From contig JAHLMK010000004.1 of NCBI GenBank assembly GCA_019915135.1, forward strand, positions 2,046,001 through 2,110,000: a stretch of DNA of 64,000 bases. Reading direction: 5' to 3'. The position numbers and the translations under genes were made by a program. How positions within the stretch are numbered: position 1 is the first letter of the stretch; each line of letters begins with the position of its first letter. Below are positions 11,381-58,600 of the stretch, in pieces. This stretch comes from Strobilurus pachycystidiatus. Lineage: Eukaryota; Basidiomycota; Agaricomycetes; Agaricales; Physalacriaceae. The notes below the pieces were generated by a model. It ran no database searches. It worked only from the letters and a program-made list of their open reading frames with translations, and was not told the DNA's origin.

Positions 11381-11896
11381 CTTTTGCGTGTCAGACCCTC
11401 CACAAACACAGCGACGAGACACCGAGAGCGTACCTGAGACGTCCGGTGGCTTGGTCGTCGATTTCCCCGCCCGCTGCCCGCTCTACGCGACAACGTCGCT
11501 TTTCGAACCATTTTCATCGCTCGCCGGACTGTGTTACATTGCTATTGAGTGCGGGTGCTTGCGTCGCCTCATAGACACGATAATATCATTGTTTTCGTCC
11601 CTCTCCTTGGATCGGCATTCCTCACGGTGCTGCTCCATCTGTCCCGCCACCCCGACTGCTGCCTACCCCGAGTGTTTTCCATCCGTGGCTGTGAACCTTT
11701 GCCCTATTTGGGAAATCTTCTCCTTTAGGAAGAGGACCCTCAGCCTCCAACCCCATCAAACTACCTGTACAGTTGCTTCGGCTGTTTCCGACGCGCATAT
11801 ACTAATCTCCACGCGTTTTTTCTCCCATCCTTCTTACCACACACCACAACAGTCCTCCAGCATCCCGCTCCTTGACTTCACCTCATCCACTTCTCG

Positions 11897-13693
11897 ATGT
11901 CCTCACCTGCCAAGAACGACACGCGCGTGACGCGTGCTGCCACTGTCGCCGCCATCAGCGTTGACCCTACCAAAAAGGCTGATACCCCCGTGAGTCGTCG
12001 ACGCCTGCCATTCTTTACGTGTAGACGTCTGATGTGGTCGCGTGTGCCTCAGGACGCGAACAATCTCCGTGGGGCTGCCAATGCCGCTCTTTCTGCTCTA
12101 CCCCCCATCCAAATCCCTGCCTCGGCTGCCCCATCAGTTCCGCCCGGTTTGCCCGCTCCTGGACTTACCGCGGCCACGCATAACGACAATGGAGGCCAGC
12201 CGCTTCCTTCTGCTGCTTCTGCAGCTCCTCCTGCTGTCGTCGCGCCTGCTGCCGTTGCTCCTGCCCCGGTCCCGCCTGCATCGAGCGTCCCTCCCCCCAT
12301 CGCTCCTGCCAAAGCTAAAAAGACGCCTCCTACCCCCTCCAAGGGAAAGAACAAGGCACCTGTCGTCTCAGCCCCTCCAGCGGCTGAACAGCCAGTAGCC
12401 AGCGCCTCTGGTCCACCCGATCGCCATGGTCTGCGTGCCATTCACAATGAGGCGAAGACTGCCGGGAAAACGTCAACGACCAAACTTCAATCTGACGTCG
12501 CGGCCATGTCTGCCGCGGTCATGGCCCAAGGCGATGAACTCGACACCTTCCGTAACGAGGTCACAGACACCCTTGACGGCTTGCGCTCGCAGCACATCAG
12601 TGAGCCTCACTCTTACCGAACGGCGTTGACCTTCTCACATCAGACTTCAGGTGTCAACGCCGACGTCGCTGAGGGTTTTGCGCAACAAGACAACCTCATC
12701 CATGGCCACGACGGTGCTATCATGATGATGGTAGACCGCTTTGTGGACCAGTCTGCGCGCAACGACGTTGTGGACAGTCGACTCGACACGGCCAACGTTC
12801 AGCTATCCATCACGGAGGCTGAGGTCGCCGCCGTTGGTCAACATATGCTCGGTCTCGAAAACGGGGTAGAAAGTATACGTCGTCTTCTCGAGCAGACGAT
12901 TGCCCGGCTCGACGCTCCTCCCGCATCCCGACCAGCTACCCAGGCCGACATCATAGATGTTGACGCTTTGGCGGGACACACTGGCCCTGCACCTGCGGCT
13001 GCCCCTGCCCACAGCGCTCATGGACGCAGGGAGAGCACCGTTGGTTACTCCGGCTTCCTTCGACGAGGAGGGGATATGGCGCCGCCTCCCGTACTTGGAT
13101 CCTCCGCCGCATCCTCCGCCGCTCGCGCGTCAGTCCCTACAACCACCATTAGTGCGCCGTCTTCCTACGCAGCAACTCCTTCTACTGCAGGTTACGGCGA
13201 GTCTATCTCCTCTGGACCTCGTCCCACTACCACGATCCGCGATCCCCCTCCGGCCTCTTATTTAGGACTAGAGGACCGCGCTCCTGACCTCCCTCCCGGT
13301 GTGTCGATGCCGCCTCCCATGCCGTCATCTGCTGCGAGTCGAGGACCTGCACCGGCACCGGCTGCCCCTCCCACCAAGAAGTCGCGCGCTACTTTTCGTC
13401 CACGCCCCGGGTCCGTCACTGTCACTGTCCTGGGCGTTCGCTGGGGGTCCGATATCACGGGGGAGGCCCGAGAGACCATTCGCCGTATCTTGGGAACAGT
13501 TGCCGATCCCATCATCACAGCCCCAGCTTTTCGAGCACACCGTGGGGACCCCGTCCTCGGGGGTCCTGTCATTCATTTCACCGCCCCTAGCACTGACTGG
13601 GCGCTGTGGTTCTGCGACAGCTTCAATCATGTCGCTCCTACGACTGAGTGGGCTGTCGCAAAGGCTACTTACGAAACCGCCCCGTTAAACTAG
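11897..13693 (+). CDS. LINE ORF1 protein
   Basis: 598 residues from ATG 11897, stop at 13691-13693. The N-terminal half is Pro/Ala-rich and low-complexity. A central heptad-like region (about residues 170-345, with runs such as LDTFRNEVTDTLDGLRSQ and IRRLLEQTIARLD) suggests a coiled coil for trimerisation. A further Pro/Ser-rich linker follows. The last ~100 residues (VTVTVLGVRWGS...) could be an RRM-like fold, but this is not certain. ORF1 proteins bind the element RNA and act as chaperones. Two segments, 11990..12052 and 12600..12650, look like in-frame GT-AG introns within the frame; see findings. Confidence 0.8.
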   Translation: MSSPAKNDTRVTRAATVAAISVDPTKKADTPVSRRRLPFFTCRRLMWSRVPQDANNLRGAANAALSALPPIQIPASAAPSVPPGLPAPGLTAATHNDNGGQPLPSAASAAPPAVVAPAAVAPAPVPPASSVPPPIAPAKAKKTPPTPSKGKNKAPVVSAPPAAEQPVASASGPPDRHGLRAIHNEAKTAGKTSTTKLQSDVAAMSAAVMAQGDELDTFRNEVTDTLDGLRSQHISEPHSYRTALTFSHQTSGVNADVAEGFAQQDNLIHGHDGAIMMMVDRFVDQSARNDVVDSRLDTANVQLSITEAEVAAVGQHMLGLENGVESIRRLLEQTIARLDAPPASRPATQADIIDVDALAGHTGPAPAAAPAHSAHGRRESTVGYSGFLRRGGDMAPPPVLGSSAASSAARASVPTTTISAPSSYAATPSTAGYGESISSGPRPTTTIRDPPPASYLGLEDRAPDLPPGVSMPPPMPSSAASRGPAPAPAAPPTKKSRATFRPRPGSVTVTVLGVRWGSDITGEARETIRRILGTVADPIITAPAFRAHRGDPVLGGPVIHFTAPSTDWALWFCDSFNHVAPTTEWAVAKATYETAPLN

Positions 13694-13716
13694 ACCGGGC
13701 AGTCCCTTCCTCCAGA

Positions 13717-16700
13717 ATGTCGTTACTAGAGACGCGCTTACCGAATGTACGAAACATTGACGATGTTTTATCTTCGTGTGCTGCCGCCCCCGTAATCAAT
13801 ACAACTACATTTGCATCTGGATTCAACGCTCCTCTCAGTGAGATTAGAGTAAGATCGCAGAATGTGAATGGTAACTTCCTTCTGAAGCTGGACTGCCCTG
13901 ACTTCATAGACCAAATTAAAAAATACGACATCAACTTCTTTCAGGAGACGCATCTACGCCCTGGGCAGCATCTCACGGTACGAGTCCCTGCAGGATACAA
14001 TATGTTTTCACGCACGCGTACACCTGGCCCAACATTTGATCGTGTATGGGGTGGGGTCGCAGCAATTGTCAACAGTGACCTACGCGCTCGCATGAGGGAG
14101 GATTTGTCAGGTCCCGACTTCATGGTGCTTCAAATTGATGATGTTGTATTCTACAATGTCTATATCCTTCCCGAGACTAGTCAATGGGCTCGATATATGG
14201 ATCGTGATCCGGAGGAGGCTCTGGCCGACTCCCTAGCCTTAGCGACAGCTTCATCATTGAAAGTTGTGTTTATCGGGGACCCCAACGCTCACACGGCACA
14301 AGAGGTCGCGCGTTCGCTTGATCCGCCACGCTTCTCTCTGGATATGGTCCTGAGTAAGAGGGGTCGTGCTCTCCTCACATTGTGGGGTGACTGCAAGATG
14401 CAGATACTCAATGGCACACACGCTTTTGCTCCCGGCGCCAACCGTTTCACTTTCTTTCGAGGCACTGAGACAGCAACAGTCATCGATTACGTTGTTTGCT
14501 CGGCTTCTCTGATGTCCTCGAATAGAGCGACACACATGACAGTGTGCGAGAAAGATGATTGGTCTGATCATGCTGCCCTGGAGGTTAACGTCTTGGTCAA
14601 AATCCCGCAAGGCGGTTCTGTCTCTAAACGTAAACGTAAGACGCGTAAGCGCAAAGCCGACGAGCTAGCACACATTCCCGACCTCAATGATTTGGATCGC
14701 TTAGCTAGAAAGATCATTGAGGAAGGAAAGGACCCGGAACGACGTACGAGACATCTCTTTGGAGTAGTATATCGTGATACCGCACCTATGTCCATCTATG
14801 TCCATGGTTTCTGTCGAATCACGGATGACAGTACAGCCCAGGCTGGTCTTGCGGTATACGCGGGTGTCAACTCAAACATGAACTATGCCGAACGCCTCTA
14901 TGGTGCTCAAGACGCGACACGTGCTGATCTCGCGGCGGTTGCTGTTGCACTGTGGAGAGCGCCCGAGTACAAGACAGTCCACATTCACCTGCGCTCCGAA
15001 AATGTGATACAAGCCATTGTATACCGTTCGCGACGAGAACGTGTCTCTGGATGGAAGGGTCGTGATGGTGATCTCCTCAAGAGAATCAATGACCTAATCG
15101 TACGAAGACCAGCGCCCGTTCGATTCGTTCCTCTATCAAAACCAGCACTCAGTTCAAACAAGCACGCTGCACAGGCCTATGCCAACGCAAAGGCTTGCTG
15201 TCAGATCCGACTCCCTGATGAGCCGTCTCCCTGGCTGACAGCAACCCTGGTACCTTTCTCGATACCGAACTCTGAGCCATTGAGGGAGCTGCATATTGAG
15301 AAGGTCGTCACAGACGTCGTCGACCCCTCCATCAAAGCACCCAAAGCCACTCCCAACAGGAAAGACTATCCAGAAGGGCATCGAGGACGAGACCGCGTGA
15401 GTCAGAAACGCGACGAACACCGTGACCGTGTCGTCAACGCGCCGTCGGATGCAAAGTTCTGGAAGAGCGTCAAACAGGTGGGAGATCCTGTTGCGGAAGA
15501 AGTGCGCGTGTCTGTGGAACAACTACGTGAAGAGTTCAGAACGCGACTAAATCCCGCAGCCGAGTTTCCTGCTCAATTTGATGAGCTGGAGCACAAACTA
15601 CGCGAGGTCGTCTGTGCTTACCTGCCAGAGCGGACCGGCGACGAATCTACCGACCCCCTTCTCATGCGCCCCATTTCTAGCTCAGAGATTGAGGACATGA
15701 AGGCGGACTTGCTCGACGGCAACATGGGCAGCGCGGCCGGCGTGGACAAGGTTACACACTCCGAGATCGTGGATGCAGATAACGACGCGATCGCCGATCT
15801 GTTCAACCGATGTCTACGCGATCGTGATTGCCCCTCGGAGTGGCTGCTCATCTTTCTCATTGGCATTCTCAAACGAGGGAAAGAAGCGACGGAGCCAGGA
15901 AGCTATCGACTCATTGGAATTGAAAGCTGCTGGTTCCGTGCCTTGTCTCTCGTGATTCACAGGAGACTGACCGAATGGGCTGGGAATCACGGTTATATAC
16001 CAGATTACCAGAATGGATTTCGAGCGGGTTACCGCACAAACAACAACCCGTTCATACTCAGATGCTGCATAGATCATGCTCGTGCACTCAGTCGCCCTCT
16101 CTATGTTGCTGTGGTGGATGCAACAAATGCATTTCCATCTACGGACCGTGCCACGCTCTGGACTAAACTGTACAGGCTTGGACTGCGTGGCCCCATCTTT
16201 GACTGGCTTCGCATGGTTTACGACCGTTGCGAATACTATGTCAAACACGCAGGTGTCGCCAGTGATCTATTCAGTGCCTGTATAGGCCTGTTAACTGGTG
16301 ACACATCCTCTCCGATCCTGTGGAACTTATTCCTGTCCGATCTTGCAATGCCGTTTCACAAGGATGATGTTCGCCTCGCGGGGACTATTATCAGCATTTT
16401 GGCTCATGCCGACGACATGCTGTTGATGTCGCACTCACCAGAGGGGCTGCAACTACAACTTGACGCTCTTACACACTGGGCGTCACGAAACTTCATCCTG
16501 ATAAACGAAATCAAGACGGTCGTTATGCGATTCGGCACAGAAGCACAGCTGCGCGGGCCTGTTCCGCTCTTTACACTAGCGGGAAGACCGCTTGCGTACT
16601 CGGTCTTGGAACGCTATGTCGGCGTGGTATTTGCTGCATCAGAGACGAACGGCTCTTTGTTTGAGCACCACTACATCAAGAAAGCAAGCACTGCCCGGTA

Positions 16701-16998
16701 TGCAGCTCACTGCATCTGGGGCATGGAGGATCGTGTCGGAAACCTACCTGTAAAGCAGGCTCTGAAGCTTTATATGGCGCGGGTGGACTGCCACCTGATT
16801 CACGGGGCCGAGATCATGCCCGATTGTCAGAAAAACCTGGTACTCCACCTTCGTAATGTTCAGCTCGCCTACCTTCGACGAGTCCTCATGCTCCATGCTC
16901 ACTCTGCTGTGGTACCTCTCTACACCGAAACGGGAATCATGCCTATCGAAGTCCGTCGCTTCCTCCAAGTCATGACGAACCTAAAGTACTACCTCTCT
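13717..16998 (+). pseudogene. LINE ORF2, 5' part: endonuclease, RNase H-like domain, reverse transcriptase
   Basis: The first 1094 codons of ORF2, beginning at ATG 13717. Residues ~40-285 are an endonuclease/exonuclease/phosphatase domain with its catalytic set: QNVNG, FQETHL, GDPNAH, TVIDYVV and WSDH. Residues ~355-490 resemble an RNase H fold placed before, not after, the polymerase; its acidic residues are replaced. Residues ~630-950 are the reverse transcriptase: VVDATNAFPS (motif A), GLLTGDTSSPILWNLFLSD (motif B) and LAHADDML (motif C, with HADD in place of the usual YADD/FADD). The frame runs into the CACTA element at 16999 and stops at 17034 with foreign residues. The missing C-terminus continues at 31173. 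Confidence 0.93.
16996..16998. other. Target-site duplication of the CACTA element (left; right copy 31170..31172)
   Basis: TCT on both sides. In ORF2 it is a complete Ser codon, so removing the element plus one copy leaves ...CTC TCT CTT... in frame. Confidence 0.92.
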
Positions 16999-17060
16999 CA
17001 CTGCGTTTCTTGCTTTCTGACAGAAGTCGGATAGGTGGATATACAGCCTAGTAACAGACA
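16999..17060 (+). repeat. CACTA left terminal inverted repeat
   Basis: CACTGCGTTT at the very end, then a second conserved block GACAGAAGTCGGATA at 17019..17033 and AGTAACAG near 17050. All three are mirrored at the right end in the same order and nearly the same spacing. Confidence 0.92.
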
Positions 17061-31910: not shown

Positions 31911-33818
31911 TGACGTTTCTCCGCTTATGGCTCTGCTCAAGTTCTACAGCGGCGGCGGATACTTTCACACGTTGATGTCGACCGCGAGCTCGGCTTGTTT
32001 GGAAATATGGGTGGTTAAGTTGGATGATGCAGTATCTGTAGTGCCTTTACTGTACTCTAGCGTCCGGCGATCAGGAATGGTCCGTGCCGAGTAATAATGA
32101 ATGAATGAATGGGGAGGGAGAGCAAGCCAGGCACAGACTTGGCTGCTGCTTTCGGCAAACACTCCTAAGTGAGGCTGTGCTACAACTCTTGCCTTCGTAC
32201 TTACTTACCACGACCAGCTTGATGCAAATCGTGCGTCTTTCGTCCTCGTCGTCGACCCCGGCGGTCTCTAGGCGCGGTGCTTCTGGCTACGCTACGCCGT
32301 TGGGCTTGGTTGCCACGATCACCAAGTTCAACATGACGCGACCAACATGGACCGCAAAGACGACGACGATTCCTACGACGGGCAGGTGGAGTACGGCACC
32401 GACGGAGAGCACAGTCATCCGCTGCGTGATGAATGGGAGCGCGCGGGGCCGCCGGAACGAGCTGGCGCGCTGCTTGGAGGCGGGCGTCAACGCGAGGTGA
32501 TTTTTTATGATTTTCCATCGGATACGTCAGCTGTGCATGGCGTATCCGTTTCTTTTTGCTGATAGTTGTGAAGATTCAGATCTCCGCGCGGGGTAAGCCC
32601 TTTCTGAGGCACCCACCCATATCTCCTCGTCGTCCCCCTGACTTCCCGCGCCCCAAAAACCATGCACCAGATAAGGGTTCTCATCTGATGTACGGTTTCT
32701 GAACGCGAGTCGTCCAACGACGAGGACGAGGGCGGCGCTCTCGACGGGGCCCTTAGACTGGTGCTAGACGCACGTATCCTTAGCCGCCAGTGTGCTTATA
32801 CGCAGTCATGCACTTGTCATATCATCCCGGTGCGTATATTTGTCTTTGAACCGTGTTCTTCCTCCTCATTCCTTGGCCAGCTGTCACGACTGCCGTGTTC
32901 CACGTCGCCCTTGGACGCAGCACTTTGCCTGGCGATGCAGATGTTTCTCCTCACGTCTTTCGTCACCCGGTCCAGATACTCCCTCCTCCGTATCCTCTGC
33001 GGCGCGTTCACGTCGCCTATCTACATTCCTTCGACTACAGGATGATCGCTACTTTGAGTTGATGTTCTGCCACTTACTCCGGCCGCCGTCGCACCACTTC
33101 TTTGCCAGCTCGCTGCCGCACCGCCGCCGCCGTCCGTCCCGCCCACGGCGGTGGACCCAATATTCTCGGAAACTACTTCTCAGAATGAAGGAGGCGATGG
33201 TGCACGACGGCATGTGGTGATTGTGATACCACCAACCACTGTCGTTTTGGTATGTTTGCATTTCCTGTGTTCGACACCAGCCTCATGATTGGACTAGCGA
33301 TATCTCCGGGTAAAACGCAAAGCCAGTTCGTTCGCCGTGTCGCCCTTTGTCTGGTGTACGCGGAACCGGGGCGCACAGGCCGGTTGGTGCGTACATGGTG
33401 TTTTTTGTTTCCCCTCTAATCTCTTCTATAGCCTTTTGCCTCGGTCTCAGTCTCTGCGTCCGGTCCATCACCTCGCCGCCTTGTTTTATTCCCTGGCGCA
33501 TACAGTGTTTCGGCGTCACGTAGGATATCCCAGCGTTATGGTCAGTCGCACCCATTCGTTTGTCGGATTCGTAGGCGTCTCCACGTACTTGCCTCCGGCA
33601 CAGAGCCGACTTGACGCACTTTCTGTTGCAATATACTCTATCTTTCTTCAAAAGAACACACATACAGTATGGTCGATACCAACGCCGCCTCACAAGATAA
33701 TTTAACAGTCGGCCGCTGAGTGGTGTCGTGGGAAACATATGACCCTGGCATTTGTTGACGTTCGACATCGCATGGTAAAGGCATGGTAAAGGTACTATTG
33801 TTCTTCCTTTCCACCACC
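31911..33818. other. LINE 3' tail and gene-poor interval
   Basis: The LINE 3' untranslated end runs to a short TGAA-type repeat near 32093-32110. Beyond it are small open frames on both strands. One (about 32400-32500, reading RGRRNELARCLEAGVNAR) is faintly ankyrin-like, but no gene model could be built. The promoter of the membrane ankyrin gene should lie at the right edge. Confidence 0.4.
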
Positions 33819-36800
33819 ATGGCCGACGACCTATGCAGCACTCTCCTCTCCAACCCAGACGTCTCTGGCATTGGCGTTCGCGCAGCCATTTACGCCCAAA
33901 ATATCCTATGCTTCTTCCCGGTCATCGTGTATCTCTGGGATAACAAGATTTCTAGGGACGAGCTGAAGGGCATCAAAGACCAATCAATTGGCATGCTAGC
34001 AGTCGCTTTCGCCATCCTCCTTACCACCATCATCCTGGCCAAAGGCGGCGCTGGAGACCAAAGGATCACCGGTTACAATGCCGCCATCGTCCTGGATCTT
34101 AGCTGGATGAACAACACCAGCACGTGGATCTGGTTCATTCTCTATGTCCACTCTCAAAGCAAGCGCGATGGCCCGGACCCCGTCAGAGCAAGTTGGAGCG
34201 CATGGCGCAAAGCTCTGTTTGGGCCTCTCCGGGAGTTGCTGTCGGGGGGATGGAGACCCTCGCGCATCGCTCAACGCATGTGGCGTTTCATCTCTAGGAA
34301 GCCTGTCCTCACTCTCGGTTCCATCCACCTCTCGCTCATGGCTGCCGTTGGGATATGGCTATGGATCGATCCATCCAAATTTGGCCAGCCCATTGATGCC
34401 AGCTGTGATGCCACGCTTACGGTTGTCGGAGCGCATGCGCGTCTGTCATCAAGACCATTGCGCATCGTTTCATTGTTGATGTATTCCCTTGTTCTCATTC
34501 CTGGTGTCAACCTCATCCCTCCCTTTGCCTTCTTCCTCACTCTACACATCTCATATAACTGGTCTCGGGCGCGGCATCAATCAGTTTGGAAATGGTGGGA
34601 CAAGGCTGTCCACCGCCTTCAAAGAGTCTTCACACGGAGGAAGAACTTGGCTAGTACCCAAGGTTAGCCTTTCTCAACTCTCCTCCGCAGGGGATTGTCC
34701 TACCACAACTTCTTACCTATCTCCTGTTTCAGCAGTCTCTGATTCCTCCCCGCATACCGCCTTTCTCATTGTCGACCTCGTGCTCCTTTTTGCCATCAAC
34801 ATCCTTTTCATTGTCGACATTGAACTCACCCTTCGTCGTAACAAGGCCAGTCGGGATGGAGACAACACATGGGGGTTTGGACAAGTTCTTGCTCTTCTGC
34901 TTCTTGTTATTCCGCTCCGTGATGCTTGGGGTGCATTACAAGATATTTGGGAAAATCTGGAAGGCGCTCAGAAGCAGTGGGAGGAGTTGTTTCTACGGGA
35001 GTGCCAGGCAACACCGGTGGATCAGGAGCTCAAGCGTTTACTTGAGAAAGGGGCAGACCCAAATTTATGGGTCACTGACACTCAATTTGATAGTGCTCTT
35101 CAGCTATCGGCGTTCTATGGGAAGATAGACCTGGTGCGATTCTTTCTAAAGATTGAGCCTCTGGAACTGGACAAAATAGGTGAGTGTGGTCATGCTAACA
35201 GCCCGGATATTGATGACACAAAATTAGGCGGAGACTATGGGACAGCACTTTGCGCTGCTTGTGCAAATGAACAAGTTGATGTAGTCAAGGCTTTGCTAGA
35301 GGCCGGAGCAAGCCGGAATGTAGGCGACGGTAAGCAAATAAATATCACCAAGTAGTGAAAGTACTGAAGATGAAGCAGATGAACACTTTGGAGCCCCACT
35401 TCACATAGCTACACTGATGGGAAATTGCAATATTGTTGAGCTTCTCATGAAAAATAACCCAAATGAAGCTGATTCCCAATGTGAGCAAGTGCAATCATCA
35501 TGTTTAAAGCACTAAGAAAGGGAATCTAGGGAAGGATATTGGAACAGCAGTTGATGTTGCCGGGTACATCCAAAATCAAGAAATATTTGACCTATTGTAT
35601 CAAAAGGGTCTGAGAGGGGTCAGTACCCTCATGTCTCTCCACCCTTCTGTGCATTGACTTGTTGGCCACTTGAAATAAACAGGAAGTAAGTGCTGTTACA
35701 TTTTCTTCACACTAAATGCTAACTCTCTCAATGTTTAGTATGTAAGTGCTGTTGGATCCATTATGTGTGCTGAATGGTTAACTATCTCTCTTCAGGATGT
35801 AAGTAACATCACATTTCTCAAGCATACTGAATGCTGATTAAACTCGCTCTTTAGAATGTACGTGTCACTGCCTACCTCACACATACTGAATGCTGATTAA
35901 TCCCTTTCTCTGATGTTCAGTATGTAAGTGCGCCTGCGGCCCTCACACATGCTGACTGCTGACCGGTCCCTCCCTTCAGCGTGTGAGTGCGCCTGCGTCC
36001 CTCACGCATGCTGACTGCTGACCGGTCCCTCCCTTCAGTATGTGAGTGCGCCTGCGTCCCTCACGCATGCTGATTGCTGACCAATGTCTCCCTTCAGGAC
36101 GTAAGTGCGCCTGCGTCCCTCATGCATGCTGACTGCTGACCAGTGTCTCCCTTCAGGATGTGAGTGTGCCAGCGTCCCTCACACATGTCATCTGCTGACT
36201 GCTGAACGGTCCCTCCCTTCAGTATGTGAGTGCGCCTGCATCCCTCACGCATGCTGACTGCTGACCGGTCCCTCCCTTCAGCGTGTGAGTGCGCCTGCGT
36301 CCCTCACGCATGCTGACTGCTGACCGGTCCCTCCCTTCAGCCTGTGAGTGCGCCTGCGTCCCTCACGCATGCTGACTGCTGACCGGTCCCTCCCTTCAGT
36401 ATGTGAGTGCGCCTGCGTCCCTCACGCATGCTGACTGCTGACCGGTCCCTCCCTTCAGTATGTGAGTGCGCCTGCGTCCCTCACGCATGCTGACTGCTGA
36501 CCGGTCCCTCCCTTCAGGATGTGAGTGCGCCTGCGTCCCTCACGCATGCTGACTGCTGACCGCCGGTCCCTCCCTTCAGTTTGTAAGTGCGCCTGCGTCC
36601 CTCACGCATGCTGACTGCTGACCGCCGGTCCCTCCCTTCAGTATGTAAGTGCGCCTGCGTCCCTCACGCATGCTGACTGCTGACCGCCGGTCCCTCCCTT
36701 CAGGATGTAAGTGCACCTGCGTCCCTCACGCATGCTGACTGCTGACCGCCGGTCCCTCCCTTCAGAATGTAAGTGCACCTGCGTCCCTCACGCATGCTGA

Positions 36801-37674
36801 CTGCTGACCGGTCCCTCCCTTCAGTATGTGAGTGCGCCTGCGTCCCTCACGCATGCTGACTGCTGACCGGTCCCTCTCTTCAGCCTGTGAGTGCACCTGC
36901 GTCCCTCACGCATGCTGACTGCTGACCGGTCCCTCCCTTCAGGATGTGAGTGCGCCTGCGTCCCTCACGCATGCTGACTGCTGACTGGTCCCTCTCTTCA
37001 GCCTGTGAGTGCGCCTGCGTCCCTCACACATGCTGACTGCTGACCGGTCCCTCCCTTCAGCGTGTGAGTGCGCCTGCGTCCCTCACGCATGCTGACTGCT
37101 GACCGCCGGTCCCTCCCTTCAGCATGTGAGTGCGCCTGCGTCCCTCACACATGCTGACTGCTGACCGGTCCCTCCCTTCAGTATGTAAGTGCGCCTGCGT
37201 CCCTCACACATGCTGACTGCTGACCGGTCCCTCCCTTCAGCGTGTAAGTGCACCTGCATCTCTCATGCATGCTGACTGCTGACCGGTACCTCCCTTCAGG
37301 TTGTGAGTGCGCCTGCGTCTGTCACACATGCTGACTGCTGACCGTCCCTCCCTTCAGCGTGTGAGTGCACCTGCGTCCCTCACGCATGCTGACTGCTGAC
37401 CATTGTTTCCTTAATATTAAGCTTGTATGTGCTGCCTTCCAACCCTTCATGTTAAGACTAAACTCCTGATGTTCCCCAACAGCGTGTAAGTGCTACTGCA
37501 CCCTCTCACCTTCCGTAGCCTGAATCCATCCCCCCTCTACACCCCTTGGCACTAACAGGAGGTAAGAACTCCTGCTACAGGTGAACCCTTGTTCTCATTC
37601 CACTGCTTCAGAAACAAGATACACTCCGTGAATATGTAGAGAGAGATCGTAGGGCAGCACAGGCGGGGCAGTAG
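33819..37674 (+). CDS. Multi-pass membrane ankyrin protein with a 32-micro-exon variable tail
   Basis: The model has five ordinary exons (33819..34662, 34733..35179, 35228..35329, 35370..35480, 35521..35618), then 32 exons of exactly 3 nt, then 37612..37674. The sum is 1761 nt, 586 residues plus stop. Exon 1 and early exon 2 hold about seven or eight hydrophobic segments (for example ILCFFPVIVYLW, LAVAFAILLTTIILA, IVDLVLLFAINILFIVDI). Ankyrin repeats follow: ALQLSAFYGKIDLVRFFL, YGTALCAACANEQVDVVKALLEAGA, APLHIATLMGNCNIVELLM and GTAVDVAGYIQNQEIFDLL. The exon ending LLYQKGLRG at 35618 is phase 0, as are all later junctions. The last exon encodes a charged tail (KQDTLREYVERDRRAAQAGQ). The 48-nt intron at 35180..35227 is in frame and could be retained. 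The micro-exon reading is inferred from splice signals and phase, not from RNA. Confidence 0.72.
35619..37611 (+). repeat. Tandem array of intron-like units separated by single codons
   Basis: 33 consecutive GT-AG segments, mostly 56 or 59 nt (range 50-73). Each has GTGAGT/GTAAGT-type 5' ends, CTGAC/CTAAC branch-like motifs, and a CCCTTCAG-type 3' end. Between them are triplets starting at: GAA 35683, TAT 35739, GAT 35796, AAT 35855, TAT 35921, CGT 35980, TAT 36039, GAC 36098, GAT 36157, TAT 36223, CGT 36282, CCT 36341, TAT 36400, TAT 36459, GAT 36518, TTT 36580, TAT 36642, GAT 36704, AAT 36766, TAT 36825, CCT 36884, GAT 36943, CCT 37002, CGT 37061, CAT 37123, TAT 37182, CGT 37241, GTT 37300, CGT 37358, CTT 37422, CGT 37483, GAG 37559. 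The central units (about 35980-37360) are nearly identical; the outer ones diverge but keep the splice signals. Confidence 0.9.
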
Positions 37675-37819
37675 CTGGTCTTCCAGAACTCAAAGGAGTG
37701 TGGTTCAAGAGTCATGCAATTTTGAAATTTATGATATTACGATGCCCATTTTTATGACGCTACATTGACTGCTAAGCGTGTTTCTACTACAAACAATCCT
37801 TTGCGCAAATGGCCTCTGC

Positions 37820-38440
37820 GGTACCCTGCATGCTCGTCGTGTCGAACTCCAGGTGACGTTGGGAGGGGGGACGCGCCCTGCAGACTCGTTCCGTCTTGAG
37901 AATATGATGTTGGCCGTGTGTGGCGAAACGCTTAGCCATAGCGCGTCCGATGCGAGGCAGACAGAGGATGGATTTGTTGGAAGTGCGTATGGAGGCAATG
38001 GTGTCGTTGGGAGGAAACTCGTTCGTCCATGTCTTCCGGGAGCCCGGCTATTCGTCCTCGCCCAAGTCAGAGCTTCTCTCGTGATCCCCGCCCTTGTCCA
38101 AGTCCTCGCCCTCGCCCACGTCGACGCTCTGCTCCGTGTTGAATCGCAAACTCGCATCCCAGCCCGTGTCCAGGTGCACGCTCGGCGTGGCGGGCATTGG
38201 GTTGTCACGGTTGGGTTTGGTGTGGTGGTCGTGGTGCGAGAAAGTGTGGGTTGAGTGGGAGGAAAGTGGTGTGGATGTGTGAGGTGTGGTGTGAGGAAAG
38301 TGGTCCGCGAGAAGAATTATCGTTGGCGAGATTTAGCTCGTCGCGTTCTCATCAGCACCGACCCGCGCAGCGCAGCGCACAGTCCCAGTTTGAAAATCAA
38401 ATCGCCTCTGTCGTGTCGTGTCGTTAGTCGGTCTAAGCTC
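37820..38440 (-). pseudogene. Decayed copy of the cdc11 promoter and first exon (inverted)
   Basis: On the minus strand this reads, from 38440 down, a copy of the leader region upstream of the gene at 40180. A start region follows (ATG at about 38200, MPATPSVHLDTG...), with related acidic repeats ending at a TAG after SSDLGEDE. After that, 38070-37820 is a ~230-bp segment not found in the parent gene but shared, inverted, with 50430-50660. Confidence 0.75.
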
Positions 38441-38940
38441 CTGAAGCGGCGTGGTTCTCCATCGTAATTTGAACACTGGCCTTACTGTAATGTTAAGAGT
38501 CTCGAGGATACTTAGTGGGTTTGAAGCACGCGCCCATGTGACAACATAATGACAATGTGAACTGTCTGAACAAACATCCCCTGATCGGGGGTTGGACTGA
38601 GACCATCACCACTACTACTGGCCTTGCTCGCGTCAGGCGACGCGACATGAGACGACAGAGGGCGATTTTCATCTATTCGATTTGATTTGTAAACTGGTGC
38701 GTTCGACTTGCGCTTCGCGTCGCGAGTCGATGTTGACGAGACTGGATAGCAGCGACGAGCTATATTTCGCCAACCAACACCAACACCAACCTAATCCAAC
38801 CCAATGATAATGCACCTTTCTCGATGACCATTTTCCTCTCATCGGCCAACATATATATCCGCTCGCAAACCAACAACACCTTTTCTCCCGTTTTCCCATC
38901 CCTACCATCCACCACACCAGACCCAACAACACAAGTGGGT
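38400..38940 (+). pseudogene. Decayed copy of the cdc11 upstream region (direct)
   Basis: Parallels 39540-39990 just upstream of the functional gene. Shared landmarks are GGCGTGGTTCTCC, GCGCCCATGTGAC, CGGGGGTTGGACT, GCGTCAGGCGACGCG, CAGAGGGCGATTTT, and GTAAACTGGTGCGTTCGACTTG. It stops before the coding start, so it is a promoter-only copy. Confidence 0.7.
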
Positions 38941-47250: not shown

Positions 47251-48560
47251 TGGACGCTGAAAATCAACGTCGTGTATCAGCGGAGAGGACACTGAAAATC
47301 AGTGTCAAATACACTAGCTTTCGGTTGATATTCAACGTTCTTTTTGCCCGTTGAATAACAACCGAATTCGATCCATTTCAGCGTCCAGCCAAAATTGCGG
47401 GCCAGCCCAGGGCCAGCCGCAGACACTCTCAAAATCAACGTCTAACACCGTGGATTCTCATGTGCCGTATGGCTGCTGTTCACTCGATATTCACACCAGT
47501 TAAGAGAAAAAAAGTATATTGAAGAGCATAGAGTCAATCAAGTCTACAAATATATATATACCGGCGCCATACAGACGGAGAGTACATACAAGGTGACAAC
47601 TTACAACCTGCCCATATACGTCTGCAAAGAGCTCGAGAATTCTCGTCCGTCCTCGTAGAATCGGGCTCGTTGCCATTGATTTCTGTCGGTGCTCCAGCGC
47701 TCGCGGGTCCTTGTCCTGTTGTTGCCTGGCTTGTTTTCAGCGTTCATACGGCTCCTCATTCAAAGCTTTGGTCGTCGCAGGGGTACTCGTCCATTGTCGC
47801 AGGGGTCCTCGTCCATTGTCAGGGGTCCTCGTCCGTTGTTGCAGTAGTCCTCGTCCGTCGTTGAAGTGGCCCTCGTCCATCGTCGCAGCGGTCCTCATCG
47901 GTCGTTGCAGCGGTCCACGTCCTTCGTCGTGGTGGTCCTCGCCCGTCGTCAGTTCGGTCCTCGTCCATCGTCGCAGTAGTCCCCGCCCATCGTGGCAGCG
48001 GTCCTTGTCCGTCGTCTTCCATTATTGTGGTTACTCGTCCATCGTTGCGTGAACCTTCGCTTCGTTCATCGTTGCGTGGGTCCTCGTCCATTGCATCAGT
48101 CCTCATCCTCGTCCATTGTCAGCGGGTTGCTCGTCCGTCGCCACAGGTCGTCGGGATGTGCTAGCCAATCGTATCGTGTGGCACACGTTGCCGATGGGTT
48201 GAGAGAAATTTCCAGGCGCACTCAGCAAAAGGTCCCAGAAGTCGTGAGGATAAATTCCGGCCTGAGCGAAATGTCGAGGGCGGTGGCGGAGAGCGGAGTG
48301 GCGGGGAGGCGATGGTGGGAAGCAAAGGATGACGCGGCCGTCAATCACGCTATGTTGATCTGCCCAAAGTGGGCGGCGGCGATTGAAATTCGACTTTGCA
48401 AAATCATGACAAGTCCGATTTTGGCAAAGCGCATCTCAGTGCAAAAGACACTGATCTCAAATCAACGTCTCTAAAGAGTTGATCTGAAATCAACGTACTA
48501 AAGTGTGAAATACGTTGATTCCCGATTTGGAGTGCATCTTACGTTGATTTTCAACGACCA
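47251..48560. mobile_element. Non-autonomous inverted-repeat element (1.3 kb)
   Basis: The left end is TGGACGCTGAAAATCAACGT (47251..47270). The right end read on the minus strand is TGGTCGTTGAAAATCAACGT (48560..48541), an 18/20 match. The AAATCAACGT core recurs near 47435, 48458 and 48490, and inverted near 48521. A second inward copy of the tip (TTTCAGCGTCCA, 47376..47387) makes the left 137 bp a hairpin. No transposase is inside, and a clear target duplication was not found. Confidence 0.6.
47760..48120. repeat. GGTCCTCGTCCRTYGTCGCAG-type minisatellite
   Basis: About a dozen imperfect 25-35 bp units around GTCCTCGTCC and GTCGYAG. The open frames on both strands here follow from the repeat and are not counted as genes. 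Confidence 0.8.
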
Positions 48561-51191: not shown

Positions 51192-54091
51192 ATGGGACGG
51201 GAGTCGAAGTCCTTCCGCTATGCTGGCGTAAAGCAAAGACGCTCAAATAGGCAAAAGGAGCAAGCAACAACCGCGTTTGGTCAATCTACTCCGGCTGCGA
51301 CGCCCACATCTGATGTGGACAAAGAGAACCCGGTGTCCCGGGAGCTTTCTATGGCAAAGGAGCGCGGGGACAAGTATCAGGGACAGGTGTACTCGGAGCG
51401 AAAGCGGCTGAAGACCGCGAGTCGGGTCATAAACTCCCAGGCAGAAGCTCTTGATCAGAGTAATGCACAGATCGGGCAACTGCAAACCAATGTTACGGCT
51501 CTGGAGACTCAAGTCGATCATCTTACAGCCAAAACGGAATCTCTACAGGCTGATGTCGCATCTCAGAAGTCTGCTCGGCAGAAACTCGCGACGTCCTACC
51601 ATGCATTGAAAGAGAAAGTCCGCCGTATCCCCTCCCGTATCGACACTGCCATCTCTAAGACGACGTCTAAACTTGCCAAGGAACCAGCCCCTTCTGCCAC
51701 TGTATTCAATCTCAAGGAGGATGGTGCTGTACCCGATGATACACGGGACCTCATCAATGATCTTGTTGCGCTCGACGGTGTTCGCCCAAACCGGGTTGTT
51801 GGCCTGCTCAAACGATTTGCCGGAAAGCTCGGTGTTCACGTTAATGGTAGCGCGTCGGATCGTACTGTTCGACGCATTGTGAAGGAGGGAGGGGTTGCGT
51901 CACAACTACAGTTTGTAGAGGCAGTCAGTACGTCGAAAGGTTTGTTTGTTCTCTCTCTCTATCTTGCAACATCTGATTTAGATCATACCTAGGTCTCACT
52001 CTCAGCAGCAATGGTACGACACACAAGAACGTCAATCTTGAGTCCTATCGCGCAACTGTCATTGGTCCGGACAACCAGAGACAGACTTTCTTTCTTGGCA
52101 TCGAGATGGCTCTGAATCACACAAGCGAGACACAGCTGGAAGGTTGGGAAGATCTGATTGAAGTGATGTACGAGGTGTACAGGGCTTCCGGGCGCTGTGA
52201 AACAGCTGAGGATGCACGCGACTTCTGGCTTCATGTGACGGGGTGGCATTCTGACCACGCTGAAGACCAGAAGAAGCTGTTCCGGATTGGGGGAGAAAAG
52301 AAGGTGATACTAGAGCGGATGAAGCGAGGAGAGGATAGCCTTCTTGCATTAGCACCGGAAGCGCTCCTGGAGACCCTTTATAAGGTTTCCCAGGATGCCG
52401 TCAGCGATGCAGGAGGGATATCGGCGTGGGAGGCGCTCGGTGATGCGGAACGGAGAAAGCGCCATGATGCTGCTTTCAAGGCCTTCATAGTGGCCGTAGG
52501 ACAAGCCGAATTCAACAAGTTATCGCCCCAGGAGCAGCAGAACGTCGATCTCTTTATCTGGGGCGGGTGCTGCATGCATAAGAGCATGAACGTGTTCAAG
52601 GGTGGTGTTCTGGCGATGCAACTCTGGTGGGAAGAGAACATGGTCCCTGGGCCGCTGAAAATGTACAATCGCGACAATTCAGCGGCCGTGCAACTTGGCG
52701 AGGGAACAGGGGCGGCGACGCGTGCGGAAGAGAAGACGACGGGAGGTGCCATCAAGGTCGCCAGCCTGGCAGGCGCAATCTTCCGTCATAAAGACAGGAA
52801 GCGTGGACAGCAGGATACGCTCCGGTACTTCTGGGATCATCAGACTGGCCATACCATTTCTTTTCCTGATACGAGCAACACCCAATTCCAATCTCACGCT
52901 GTTGCCTGCGAGGTCATCGTCACATTCATGGACCTACTACTTCAATTCCTGGTCTACGTCAAGGAGAACAAAGGCACACGCTCACTTAATCATATGGAAG
53001 CAAACGTCCAAGCCGGCCTGCTCTGCCACAGCACTCGACACGAGTTTGTGGTCATCACCCTCTATAACCAAAATGTTGACGTCCCATATATGCGACAAAT
53101 TTGGGGACCACTGCGCAAAGAGGACAATCTTCTGAAACTCGGTCCTTTTCACGAGAAGGTCAAAGCTCACCTGCAAAAGATCGTCGCTGATCCAAAGCTC
53201 CTGACCGGACTCGAATCGACCTTCGCGACCGCGTCTCTTGATCAGCAGCCATACGAAAAGCCGGATGCTGTTTATGCCGCCCTTGCGTGGGTTCCGAACC
53301 TGGCGCACATCGATGCCCTACTTGTCGCTTTCTGTCGCGGTGTCCTGAATACCTGGGATCGGTTCGATAGCGAATGGGTCGCTGATGGCCCTACATCGAA
53401 GCTGTCACCGGAGAACGTCGAACGGGCCTGGCTCGAGTCAACAAATGACGGGAATGAAGGCGAGCTGGGCATTCGGCGACAGGGTGCACGCGCTGCTCCA
53501 AACATGTCAAATCCCTACCATAACGCGCTCCGAATGTACAAAGCCAACGGTACCTCCGAATACGTCAAGATCTTGAATCCGGCGGCACGTAAGGCTATTT
53601 GCGGCGTTGTTCGAAAGGCGGACTCCTCGGGGAAGAATAGGGCGGACAAGCTCAAGAACATCGCTCATATGAAGGAGGTCGCAGATAAGAATGCCGCGAA
53701 GGATGTTGTACGCGACGCGCGCAAAGAGCGAGCTAAAGCTGCCATTGCCAATACCTCGGCAATCTCTACCGTTGTAGACCTGGAAGCTGCGTTCAAAATT
53801 GCTCCCAGATCGGAGGGATACCTTACCGTCGCTACTCTGGATCTGCAGCTTGACTGGCATTTTGCTAATGCCGTCGGTGACTCTGCAGAAGGCATCCCCA
53901 AGGCAAAGACCGGGGCTAAAGGGCGGGGTACTCGAGACACGCGTTTTGTATACCTCAAGGACGCAATAACGCGTCGCCAGGCAGCCGTAGACCAAAACCA
54001 GAGTGCCGAGGATGCTCATAATGAGCCAGGAGAGCCCGAAGGTCCAGGAGAGCCCGTACCAGATGATATGATGCAGGTAGATGACGAAGAT

Positions 54092-54510
54092 TGTCATGAC
54101 TTGACTGCGCCACCGACGCCTAGCCGATCGAAGGCGACGCCTGCGCGGGCGGGAGCAACGGTATCGCGCCCATCGTCGGGATCTATCCGACGGCCGTCCG
54201 ACGGTAGCACATGGTGGCGGAGCTCGGCCGACGGGAAAGCGGGATCGGGCGGGATAGGGCGCGCTCCCGACCAATCACGGGCGGGATGGCGCGATGACTT
54301 GTGCGATGACTCGGGAATGAGTCAGAGGGGCGCACCCGCGCCCATCGGGCGTCGGGCGTCGGGAACTGTATAAAAGAGTCAGTAGTCAGTAGAGTAGTTC
54401 TTCAGAGAACCGTTGTCTTTCCCCCGGGATTCAATACACCACCCTTTACATCGCTCTCCAGTCGTTGCCTCGTGCGCCCTCGCTATAGACGAATAGGCCC
54501 GACGCTGACA
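54092..54510 (+). repeat. 5' LTR
   Basis: Starts TGTCATGACTTG and ends GACGCTGACA. TATAAAAGAG at about 54371 is a probable promoter TATA box. Differs from the 3' LTR at three positions (GTGG/ATGG, CTTG/CTCG, CCCG/CTCG contexts). Confidence 0.97.
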
Positions 54511-54545
54511 ATACGGTTCTCTCCCCTTTCGACGACCCAACGACT

Positions 54546-55646
54546 ATGAGCACCGAAGACGCCCCCATGGCCCCGGCCACCGAGCCCACCAACGAGCAGA
54601 GAGAGCTGCATAACATGTTCAGTGGCATAGGGACGGCCCTCGACAATCTGAACCAGCGCATCACTACCATCGCGCAGGACGAAATCAACAGGAGCCACGA
54701 GGTGGCGAACCTCCACGCTCAACTTCTTCAGCGTATCAGCGAGCTCAGCGGCGTCCAGCTGGCCGCGTCCCAAGCACAGGCGCAAGCCGCGCAACATCGC
54801 GCATCCAAGGCGCGCTTCGGGACCCCGGCCAAGTTTAGCGGGAAGTCGGACGGCATCGAGCCGTTCTTCTCCCAACTCCACATCCTCTTCGCCTCCGAAC
54901 CTCGAGCCTACGAGACCGCGCGCAACAGAGTGTTCGCCGCGCTATCGTACATGACCGAGGGGCCCGCTGTTATCAAATGGGCCAGCACGCAGACCGCCCT
55001 CTACGAGAAAGGAGAGGAGCCATACCTGACTTATACGGACTTCAAGGACGCCTTGAAAAGAGCCTTCGGAGGGACCAACTCGAAGACGATCGCCCAGGAG
55101 GAGATCAAGAAATTGAAACAGAAGAAAGGACAGGACGCCCAGTCCTTCTTCATCGACTTCGAAGAGTACAAAGCCGACACAGGTTTCAACGACGATGCCC
55201 TCATCTCCCTCCTACGCCACCAGCTGGACTCCTCTCTGGTTGAACGCATCACCGAAATGGAGAATATCCCCGAGACCTACGATGCGTACAAGAAGTTCGC
55301 CACTCGATTCGACGCTAATCGAGGCACGGCCCCCACCCAGGGATACAAGAACCCTGCCCCCTTCGTTTCCAAAAACTTCCCGCGTCCTAGTACTACGACA
55401 GTAATCAACAATCCCCCAGCCACCGGAATCACCTACGGAGGAAAAGGCGAACCCATGAGCATTGACAGAACGCGAGGCGCGGCCTCGTTAAAATGCTACA
55501 ACTGCGGGAAATCCGGGCACTTCGCGAGGAATTGCACGGAGAGACGCGAATCCGTCAAGGGACTCGTAGAAGGTCTTAGCAACGAAGAACGAGAGGATCT
55601 CGCTCAGACGCTGCAGGAGCAGGGTTTTGGCGCGGGACTGGAGTGA
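54546..55646 (+). CDS. Chromovirus Gag
   Basis: 366 residues, from ATG 54546, 36 bp after the 5' LTR. It has the retrotransposon capsid-type central region (FSGKSDGIEPFFSQLHILF; FKDALKRAFGG; DAQSFFIDFEEYK) and one CX2CX4HX4C zinc knuckle (CYNCGKSGHFARNC, about 55495-55536) that would bind the element RNA. It is intact. Its stop (55644-55646) overlaps the beginning of the pol frame by 4 nt, so pol expression would need a -1 shift or re-initiation. Confidence 0.95.
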   Translation: MSTEDAPMAPATEPTNEQRELHNMFSGIGTALDNLNQRITTIAQDEINRSHEVANLHAQLLQRISELSGVQLAASQAQAQAAQHRASKARFGTPAKFSGKSDGIEPFFSQLHILFASEPRAYETARNRVFAALSYMTEGPAVIKWASTQTALYEKGEEPYLTYTDFKDALKRAFGGTNSKTIAQEEIKKLKQKKGQDAQSFFIDFEEYKADTGFNDDALISLLRHQLDSSLVERITEMENIPETYDAYKKFATRFDANRGTAPTQGYKNPAPFVSKNFPRPSTTTVINNPPATGITYGGKGEPMSIDRTRGAASLKCYNCGKSGHFARNCTERRESVKGLVEGLSNEEREDLAQTLQEQGFGAGLE

Positions 55647-58600
55647 AGAGCGAGTCTTCCAGTCCCCCTTCCTCGGGTCCATGGACCAATCGATTCAGTA
55701 GTCTACTTGTTGAAGCCAGTGACAGTAGTAACGAACAATCCGATCCCATGGACTTCGACGAACCAAAACCCTCGCGTGAAAGAAAGAACAAAATAGCCAA
55801 AAAGGGAAGTTCGCGGATCAAACCCATCAAGCACGTCCGCGGGACCCTCCCTTTCATCTGGCACGAAATGCAGGTTAACCCCCGCCAAGCTCTCAAAGTA
55901 CTCCGGAAATACGCTCGGACTGATAGGGAGTCCGAGGTCACCCAGGAGGCGGTCCAGGACATCTTGGGCCTGGACTCCCGCCACGCCCAAGCAGCTATCC
56001 AGGAATTCCGACAACCTCGTCGTTGGATTCGATCTACACGCCCGGGGCGCTGTATGAAAATCCCCATCACCCTCAAATTCCTGAATAGTGGCAAGGCCCT
56101 CACTGTGGTCGCCCTCATCGACTCCGGAGCTACCGGAGCCTATGTCAATCGAGACTTCGCCGAAAACGAAGGAATGGACACCCAACGACTGCCACGCCCC
56201 ATCGCTGTGTCCAACGTCGACGGAACCCCCAACAATAACGGGCCAATAGAGCAGATCGTGGATCTGCGGGTCGTAACCGACAACGAACACGAAGATGTTT
56301 TCACGTTCGCAGTGACTAACACCGGCGACGTCGACATTATCCTGGGATACGAATGGCTGAAAAAGCATAATCCCGAGGTCGACTGGGTCAAGGGAACCCT
56401 GGCGTTCACGAGGTGTCCGCCAGAGTGTCAACGACGCCAGGCTCGCCGCGTATGGCGAGAAGAAGATGAAGAAGATCTCGAGGAGGGAGATCGAATTCTA
56501 GTCGTGAAGATGTGGGACGTCCCGCAGAATTGGTACGGGCAAAGAAAGCTCGACGCGGAACGAATCCGCGCTTTCGCCACTAAATCGACCCAGTTAGCGG
56601 GGGACCAAGCAAAAGCTAAGGGCGAGGCGCCCTTAGAAGAACTCGTTCCCCCGCAATATTTAGAGGAATTCCGACGGGTGTTCGAGAAAACCGAGTTCGA
56701 TCGGTTGCCGGAGCGTAGGAAGTGGGACCACGCTATCGAACTTAAACCCGACGCAACGGAGTTCAAGGGGAAGATATACCCCCTCGCCCCCTCCGAACAG
56801 GTGGAACTCGACAAGTTCATCGAAGAACACCTCCAGTCAGGGAGAATCCGCGTCTCCAAATCCCCCTACGCCTCTCCATTCTTCTTCGTCAAGAAGAAAG
56901 ACGGGCGCCTCCGCCCCATCCAAGACTATCGCCAGCTCAACACCATGACGGTGAAGAACTCGTACCCCCTTCCCCTCCTCTCCGACGTCCTTCACAAACT
57001 ACGAAACGCGAAGCTGTTTTCTAAACTGGACGTTCGGTGGGGATACAACAATGTCCGCATCGTCGAAGGCGACGAACATAAAGCCGCCTTCATCACCAAC
57101 CGAGGACTCTTTGAGCCTCTAGTCATGTTCTTTGGACTAACAAATAGTCCGGCAACATTCCAGACCATGATGAACGACCTGTTCCACGATTTGATCTTGC
57201 GCGGCAAGGTGATCGTATACATGGACGACATCCTGGTGTTCACCGAGGGCATCGATGAACATCGACAGGTTATGAAGGAGGTCCTACGCATCCTTCAAGA
57301 CAACAATCTCAGCGTACAAGGATCCAAATGCGATTTCGAGAAATCAGAAGTGGAGTACTTGGGACTGATTGTGGGGAACGGACAGTTCCGTATGGATCCT
57401 GTCAAAGTCGAGGGTGTTAGGGCGTGGCCCACACCCAGAACCGTCAAAGAGGTCCAATCCTTCCTCGGATTCGCCAACTTCTACCGGCGGTTCATCGAGG
57501 GGTTTGCACAGGTAGCAAAGCCCCTCCACTCCCTCTCGAAGAAGGATATCCCCTGGAGATGGGGAGACGCGGAGGAGGAAGCCTTCGCGGATCTGAAGGA
57601 ACGAAGGGTCGCTACCGCATCGAGGTGGACGCATCGGAATTCGCAACGGGCGGCGTCTTAAGCCAGGAGCAAGACGGCAAGACGGTCCCCATCGCATTCA
57701 TGTCCAAATCACTGAGTCCCGCGGAGCGAAACTACGACATACACGACAAGGAGATGTTGGCCATCATGAGAGCCCTGGCCGACTGGAGGCATTACGTTCT
57801 CGGAGCACCGGAACCAACCCTCATCCTGACGGATCACAAGAACCTCGAAGTTTTCATGCAGGCCAAGAAGCTTAATCGCCGCCAGGCACGGTGGTCACTC
57901 GACCTGGCGGAATACAACTTCACGCTGGTTCACCGCCCGGGGGCGCAGAACAAAAAGGCCGATCTCTTGTCGAGACGACAAGGACATGAGAGGGGGGCGG
58001 ACGACAACCGCGACACCGTATTACTCAAAAAGGAATATCTCAGCCGCATCTTCGCCACGCCGATCTCGATTGACGATTATAACCATATTCGGGCAATGGA
58101 TGAAGTCACGATCGCCACCGAAGGGAACGACTTTATGGACCGAATAATCGCCGCGAAGGACGAGTGGGAGGAGAAAGTGAAGAAGATGGTCGGGAAGACC
58201 GTAGAAGATAAGGGAGGATACCTTACCAAAGAAGGACTACTCTATGTCCCGGCCAACCGCACACTACGCCAACGAATCATGCGGCAACATCACGACACCG
58301 CAATAGCGGGCCACCCTGGACGATTCCAAACCACGGAGTTAGTGCTACGGAACTATTGGTGGCCCGGACTATACGCAGACGTGGCGCGTTATTGTAACGG
58401 ATGCCTCGACTGTCAGAGGACCAAATCGTCCCGACAACTCAAAGTCGGACAACTGCAACCTAACGAGATCCCCTCGGCGCCCTGGCAGCATATCAGCGTC
58501 GACCTAATCGTCAAACTCCCCGAGTCCCTCGGATACGACTCCATCATGGTAGTGGTCGACCGATTTACGAAGATGGCAAGGTTCATGCCCACCACCACTC

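Follow-up and report, generated by a model that had tools for sequence, protein, structure and literature searches.

Predicted single-codon exons on tandemly repeated intron-like units in a predicted membrane-ankyrin gene family of Strobilurus pachycystidiatus

A 64,000-nt stretch of the Strobilurus pachycystidiatus genome (assembly GCA_019915135.1, contig JAHLMK010000004.1, positions 2,046,001 to 2,110,000; hereafter the window, whose numbering is used throughout) contains a gene for a predicted membrane-ankyrin protein in which the ankyrin exons are followed by a tandem array of intron-like units, with three bases between one unit and the next. This array is probably a run of single-codon exons that are spliced into the C-terminal tail of the protein. 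Two paralogues on the same contig have arrays of the same layout, and the three copies are called A (the gene in the window), B and C below. Patterns of sequence evolution give good support to the coding reading, with the firmest case in A.

The predicted gene of copy A starts at 33819 and consists of five ordinary exons, 32 triplets and a final exon (Table 1). Its joined coding sequence (CDS) is 1743 nt in the predicted model; the initial annotation of the window had put it at 1761 nt, a length that has to be corrected while its divisibility by three stands. A simple scan found six hydrophobic segments in the protein, four encoded by exon 1 (residues 22-40, 56-74, 163-181 and 224-242) and two by exon 2 (residues 291-309 and 332-350), and the joined protein matched Pfam Ank_2 with an E-value of 2.9e-21. 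At E 0.001 or better, the protein search gave 338 relatives (120 listed), with a Mycena olivaceomarginata protein as the best match (E 1.6e-218, 91% query coverage); homology over both the N-terminal membrane part and the ankyrin repeats places the product among the Mycena ankyrin-repeat proteins. The ordinary and array introns modelled in the copy A gene are 48-73 nt long. In the frame that A leaves open, intron 2 of B and C has a stop (alignment, by eye) and must therefore be removed in those copies, an argument for the ordinary intron model.

Exon 5 is followed in all three copies by the donor GTCAGT. In A, the 32 AG-NNN-GT triplets that had been claimed were recovered from 35683-35685 to 37559-37561, with the donor at 35619 before them, and a recount reproduced both the annotated residue composition (Tyr 9, Arg 6, Asp 6, Pro 3, Asn 2, Glu 2, and Phe, His, Val and Leu once each) and the use of 12 codons with T at position 3 in 29 of 32. 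The predicted array peptide of A is EYDNYRYDDYRPYYDFYDNYPDPRHYRVRLRE, and the final exon runs in frame to a TAG stop, as proposed. The form GTRNGT, annotated as kept even in the outer, diverged units, is found in 31 of 32 donors; the last one is GTAAGA. AGNNNGTRNGT sites occurred 40 times on the + strand of the window, 31 of them within 35600-37700, and 6 times on the - strand, a clustering that excludes chance for the array.

Pattern and DNA searches located the two further arrays about 33 and 48 kb to the right, on the opposite strand. A genome search for spaced AG-NNN-GT units was run with the paired pattern CAGNNNGTRAGT-N{35,65}-CAGNNNGTRAGT over the 51.8-Mb genome (61 contigs) and gave at least 42 matches; among those listed, 24 were in A, 3 in B and 15 in C, that is, all in three arrays of one gene family and none outside them, and the reversed control pattern gave 0. 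A DNA search with three units gave at least 31 matches, all in the arrays, with no dispersed copy among the matches listed. The repeat counts of both kinds of search are lower bounds.

The gene bodies of the two paralogues share 94 and 95% protein identity with A over exon 1 (protein search). B (locus L009) and C (locus L011) have the layout and in-frame final exon of A and differ from it in unit numbers and codons: A has 32 units, B 15 and C 36, giving 83 in total. All three CDS models are intact and divisible by three, with the frame kept through all junctions. The predicted array peptides are KYNSYDDYEYDILRE in B and KNHNYDDLYDDYDDYDPDLRRRRREEERRRYDLLKQ in C, and a homologous 20-residue end follows the array peptide in every copy; the final exon has the same length and stop position in each (stops TAG, TAG and TAA in A, B and C, respectively). 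The ratio of non-synonymous to synonymous substitution rates (dN/dS) over the body exons was 0.23 for A-B, 0.26 for A-C and 0.24 for B-C, which indicates that the genes are maintained by purifying selection. With 32, 15 and 36 predicted 3-nt exons in a row, all in frame and well short of 51 nt, the three copies would be micro-exon genes in the structural sense. The C peptide includes runs of identical codons (RRRRR, EEE and a repeated YDD), which suggests that units were copied together with their codon. In the final exon, amino-acid-changing and silent differences stood at 4:1 for A-B, 4:1 for A-C and 6:2 for B-C; this exon, too short to judge, may share the fast evolution of the tail.

The units have the properties of short fungal spliceosomal (U2-type) introns in their GT, AG, branch-point spacing and length. 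The AG before and the GT after the triplet are intact in 83/83 units, 82 of which came from a pattern that itself demands AG and GT. Anchoring on 33 intron-interior bases, which is independent of that pattern, gave 71 anchors (below the 83 units), 70 of them within 1 nt of an AG-NNN-GT triplet; the one exception is in C, in an intron of 75 nt with a divergent 5′ part. Donors are mostly GTRAGT, with 37 GTAAGT and 36 GTGAGT (73/83). A CTRAY branch-point match was found 8-40 nt before the intron end in 74/83 units (median distance 17), and the AG is mostly preceded by a pyrimidine-rich stretch. Nearly all array introns are 53-66 nt long (extremes 50 and 75), and about 56 nt is typical.

The triplets vary in a manner different from that of the sequence around them. 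In A, 23 near-identical core units were picked by flank similarity alone, a choice that depresses the flank figure and leaves the triplet unaffected; the pairwise difference per site averaged 0.046 over the 55 flanking bases, compared with 0.672 for codon positions 1-2 and 0.087 for position 3. Codon positions 1-2 are thus about 15 times as variable per site as the flanking intron, and position 3 is near the background; positions 1-2 are also the columns that change fastest in array A. Of the flank columns, 41/55 were without any variation, and among 38 unit pairs with identical 55-nt flanks the triplets differed in 31. Fitch counts over all 83 units gave 34, 22 and 10 changes at the three codon positions, 0 and 0 at AG, 0 and 0 at GT, and a mean of 8.35 at the 54 other intron columns. 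Fast codon positions between intact AG and GT are expected of coding exons under diversifying selection, not of a minisatellite inside one long intron. As a fairer control, every three-column test window was omitted from the tree before scoring. The pooled contrast then shrank relative to the simple Fitch column comparison, and the codon window still had 66 changes over all units against a maximum of 55 among 58 other windows, and 30 against a maximum of 25 in A. Codon position 1 ranked as the top column in A, second in B and joint top in C.

The direction of the changes is likewise restricted. One parsimony reconstruction of the 83 units had 47 codon changes, of which 45 were amino-acid-changing and 2 silent, against 9.7 silent changes expected from the intron mutation spectrum (P ~0.002). 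In the same reconstruction, 1 of the 47 changes ended in Ala, Gly, Ser, Thr or Cys against 12.7 expected, and 0 of 20000 simulations were as low; these P values are rough, since the expectations assume a single tree with one step per change. No in-frame stop triplet occurs in any copy in phase 0, and many occur in the frame shifted by two. Homologous genes whose triplets do not outpace the remainder of the unit in rate of change had been named as evidence against the coding reading. Over nine units matched by position from both ends, the triplets are the faster part: they differ at 6/27 sites for A-B, 11/27 for A-C and 9/27 for B-C, compared with 44/524, 84/518 and 89/519 differing sites in the introns of the same units. 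The annotated idea of single-codon micro-exons with a variable tail therefore gains support from the two paralogues of the same layout, from the 83/83 intact AG and GT and from the fast codon positions 1-2, as far as genomic sequence can speak to it. At the level of the DNA there is turnover of both units and codons.

Several observations weigh against this reading. With the test window left out, the maximum among the other windows exceeded the codon window in B (18 changes to 15) and in C (39 to 26), so the excess in triplet rate is firm in A and mixed for B and C as wholes. Codon position 2 was invariant in the nine B units of the first alignment, and recombination between units makes any single tree unreliable. 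As to the splice signals, a CTRAY match is missing from the searched range in 9/83 introns, the first donor, GTCAGT, is weak, and one C unit has the weakened donor GTAATT. The 10-kb stretches around distant paralogues on contigs C7, C10 and C2 contained no array, and relatives of the end of the model (residues 498-580) were found in 0/103 word-sharing candidate proteins at E 10 or better, a null that unannotated micro-exons would also give. In the C7 paralogue (L051, reverse strand), the membrane part leads, in place of ankyrins, into a long coiled-coil-like stretch with many Glu, Leu and Arg codons (by eye).

The alternative that survives best, though we consider it unlikely, accepts the single-codon exons as real and ascribes the variation at positions 1-2 to a local mutational or recombinational process, not to selection on the tail. 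Many codon changes are double (TAT/CGT, GAG/CGT), recombination may simply move codons between units, and the left-out-window comparison shows no excess for B or C taken whole, all of which such a process could accommodate. It would hardly have spared position 3 in A, and a blind process would not be expected to reach Ala, Gly, Ser, Thr or Cys codons, many of them one step from the common codons, in so few of the reconstructed changes.

Less probable still is a minisatellite within one long intron (35619-37611), with fortuitous splice-like motifs and non-coding triplets. The core of A is indeed a 59-bp tandem repeat, and joining the outer donor to the outer acceptor also keeps the frame. Such an intron, however, would be 1993 nt long, which far exceeds the modelled introns of the gene, and it would give no account of AG and GT staying constant in all 83 units while other intron columns change, of variation at codon positions 1-2 with position 3 spared in A, or of the absence of stops and near absence of small residues over all units. 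We give a low chance to the array being a splicing regulator, in which competing splice sites set whether, or how quickly, the final exon is joined and the codons are incidental: the repeated GTRAGT sites facing a weak first donor would suit this role, which could coexist with single-codon exons, but the codon-position pattern and the restricted residues would go unexplained. Decayed duplicate genes (pseudogenes) with a drifting repeat, for which the three clustered copies and the 4 changing versus 1 silent A-B differences in the final exon might be cited, are scarcely credible given three intact CDS models and the body dN/dS values.

Three further candidates were rejected. A dispersed introner-type element does not fit the search results, since the 31 DNA matches and the 42 pattern matches listed, both counts being lower bounds, are all in the three arrays; a stwintron does not fit units that each have their own intact GT donor and AG acceptor; and a zero-length-exon or dual-specific AGGT array is contradicted by the three bases between AG and GT in every unit.

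If the triplets are exons, their processing could be as follows. Fungal introns of about 56 nt are usually recognised across the intron, and the array introns would be excised singly, in the manner of short fungal introns, with the codon of each unit retained. Two neighbouring introns only 3 nt apart are unlikely to be processed simultaneously, so that removal would be sequential. The resulting tail would be rich in Tyr, Asp and Arg and place 15-36 residues ahead of the shared end, and skipped units could possibly shorten it in frame, every array exon being one codon. The near-identical introns would be a substrate for unequal recombination and conversion, and the exchanges would move whole codons, by which residues are gained, lost or relocated with the frame intact. 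Selection would favour changed residues from a restricted set with charged, aromatic or other large side chains, and selection on the tail would keep codon diversity while the introns are homogenised. The tail may, as a guess, be a recognition or docking surface. We lean slightly towards the fuller picture of a one-codon-per-exon system, in which an intron minisatellite holds interchangeable residues, recombination edits the tail and splicing may deal out sub-tails, together giving a hypervariable recognition tail.

A full-text search of the open-licence literature found no precedent for a run of single-codon exons on repeated introns, and several known systems share parts of the arrangement. 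In coding minisatellites the repeat is translated and recombination alters the length of the protein stretch, whereas here about 56 of the 59 bases per core unit are intron-like, with a single codon retained. Tandemly repeated 81-base exons of Schistosoma mansoni were reportedly described by Davis et al. in 1988, going by the title; there it is the exon that repeats, and here it is the intron, with the exon as the variable part. Exon skipping in the schistosome micro-exon genes (MEGs) keeps the frame. According to an excerpt of the source, MEGs have exons of 3-81 bp and introns of up to 5 kbp, and they resemble the array gene in their many very short exons (PMC10526429); MEG products are secreted and MEG introns long, in contrast to the tandem-repeat introns of about 56 nt, one-codon exons and predicted fungal membrane-ankyrin protein here, and no homology is claimed.

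The polyubiquitin gene UBC, as portrayed in part of one report, has an array of dual-specific AGGT splice sites, and the likeness lies in a tandem splice-site array whose use yields products with varying unit number (PMC10809524). In UBC, one AGGT serves as both sites and whole ubiquitin units are skipped; here one codon splits AG from GT and the units are single residues. Spliceosomes can include exons of 1-3 nt, as the relevant sections on a 1-nt exon of Arabidopsis APC11 (PMC4674806) and a 3-nt exon of Drosophila homothorax (PMC7392893) indicate; each is one isolated exon, unlike the runs of 15-36 here. Sequence-similar copies of spliceosomal introns are also described, in the portions consulted, for fungal stwintrons and repeated sister introns (PMC8469720, PMC9024468, PMC12403724). 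In stwintrons, which are nested, an inner intron interrupts a splice element of the outer one, whereas the present units are complete with a codon between them.

Outside Strobilurus, two of the 120 relatives listed, both proteins of Mycena vulgaris, look like gene models that run through a similar array, a lead from protein sequences only. In P0017 the ankyrin part is followed by five ten-residue units, [P/L]L[P/L]SS[I/V]QQ-X-I, in which the free residue X is D, L, I, E or R before a constant Ile; the last unit continues into IVSAV, which fits read-through of the donor GTGAGTGC. P0103 has four stretches of the form V-[S/R]-A-x(1-8)-M-L-[T/I], which fits translated GTGAGTGC...ATGCTGAC, and no such stretch was present in the others of the 121 proteins compared. 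Residues 440-547 of P0017, used as a query, matched only P0017 itself. In Mycena leptocephala, P0026 has PHNRDRDPHYRDAFHAWD after the ankyrin part, mostly residues of the array-tail type, which could be captured micro-exons or a plain exon. A search of 33500-38500 against Rfam at gathering thresholds gave no structured RNA match, and a bacterial-type promoter and terminator scan of 37560-37900 found nothing, which means little in a fungus.

Table 1. Predicted features of the copy A gene and its array, in window coordinates
Feature	Position	Strand	Description
Exon 1	33819..34662	+	Contains the start codon and encodes most of the predicted membrane part; open frame
Exon 2	34733..35179	+	Ankyrin region begins; frame and splice sites shared by all three copies
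Exon 3	35228..35329	+	Ankyrin repeats
Exon 4	35379..35480	+	Ankyrin repeat
Exon 5	35530..35618	+	End of the ankyrin part; phase 0 before donor GTCAGT
Intron 5	35619..35682	+	Precedes the first single-codon exon; 64 nt long in each copy
Single-codon exon array	35683..37561	+	32 predicted exons, with intron-like units of 53-73 nt between them
Triplets 1-8	35683 GAA, 35739 TAT, 35796 GAT, 35855 AAT, 35921 TAT, 35980 CGT, 36039 TAT, 36098 GAC	+	
Triplets 9-16	36157 GAT, 36223 TAT, 36282 CGT, 36341 CCT, 36400 TAT, 36459 TAT, 36518 GAT, 36580 TTT	+	
Triplets 17-24	36642 TAT, 36704 GAT, 36766 AAT, 36825 TAT, 36884 CCT, 36943 GAT, 37002 CCT, 37061 CGT	+	
Triplets 25-32	37123 CAT, 37182 TAT, 37241 CGT, 37300 GTT, 37358 CGT, 37422 CTT, 37483 CGT, 37559 GAG	+	
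Homogenised core of the array	35916..37401	+	59-bp tandem repeat, 24.8 copies, 91% matches (Tandem Repeats Finder)
Last intron	37562..37611	+	50 nt
Final exon	37612..37674	+	KQDTLREYVERDRRAAQAGQ, then stop

The rest of the window includes several other features. Successive open frames at 54489-58686 (+) contain Gag, protease, reverse transcriptase, RNase H and integrase zinc-binding domains (Pfam), and we take this element to be a Gypsy-like long terminal repeat (LTR) retrotransposon; it is adjoined by a 798-residue open frame at 51977-54373 (+) with no Pfam match at E 0.001. A long open frame at 13648-17034 (+) has endonuclease/exonuclease/phosphatase and reverse transcriptase domains, with RNase H below the cut-off (Pfam), and is presumably an element of the long interspersed nuclear element (LINE) type; a Pro/Ala-rich frame lies just upstream of it at 11876-13693. 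An open frame at 899-1792 (+) contains a KN-type homeodomain (Pfam), and a second minisatellite, with a 22/44-bp period and 11.3 or 5.6 copies, is found at 47771-48016.

Compared with the tandem-exon genes known to us, the predicted arrangement would count as a new kind, in that the roles of repeat and cargo are reversed; if all genes rich in micro-exons are taken as one kind, it would be a variant. If the predicted exons are real, they would form the longest run of single-codon exons known to us and the reverse of a coding repeat, with introns that repeat and an exon that is the variable cargo. The arrays would also be a natural test of how the spliceosome handles dozens of consecutive 3-nt exons. 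Very short exons are often overlooked in annotation, as part of one source notes (PMC8831610), and similar tails may therefore hide in annotated genomes. For this gene family, the introns would provide a framework on which a protein segment can evolve rapidly, residue by residue and without loss of frame.

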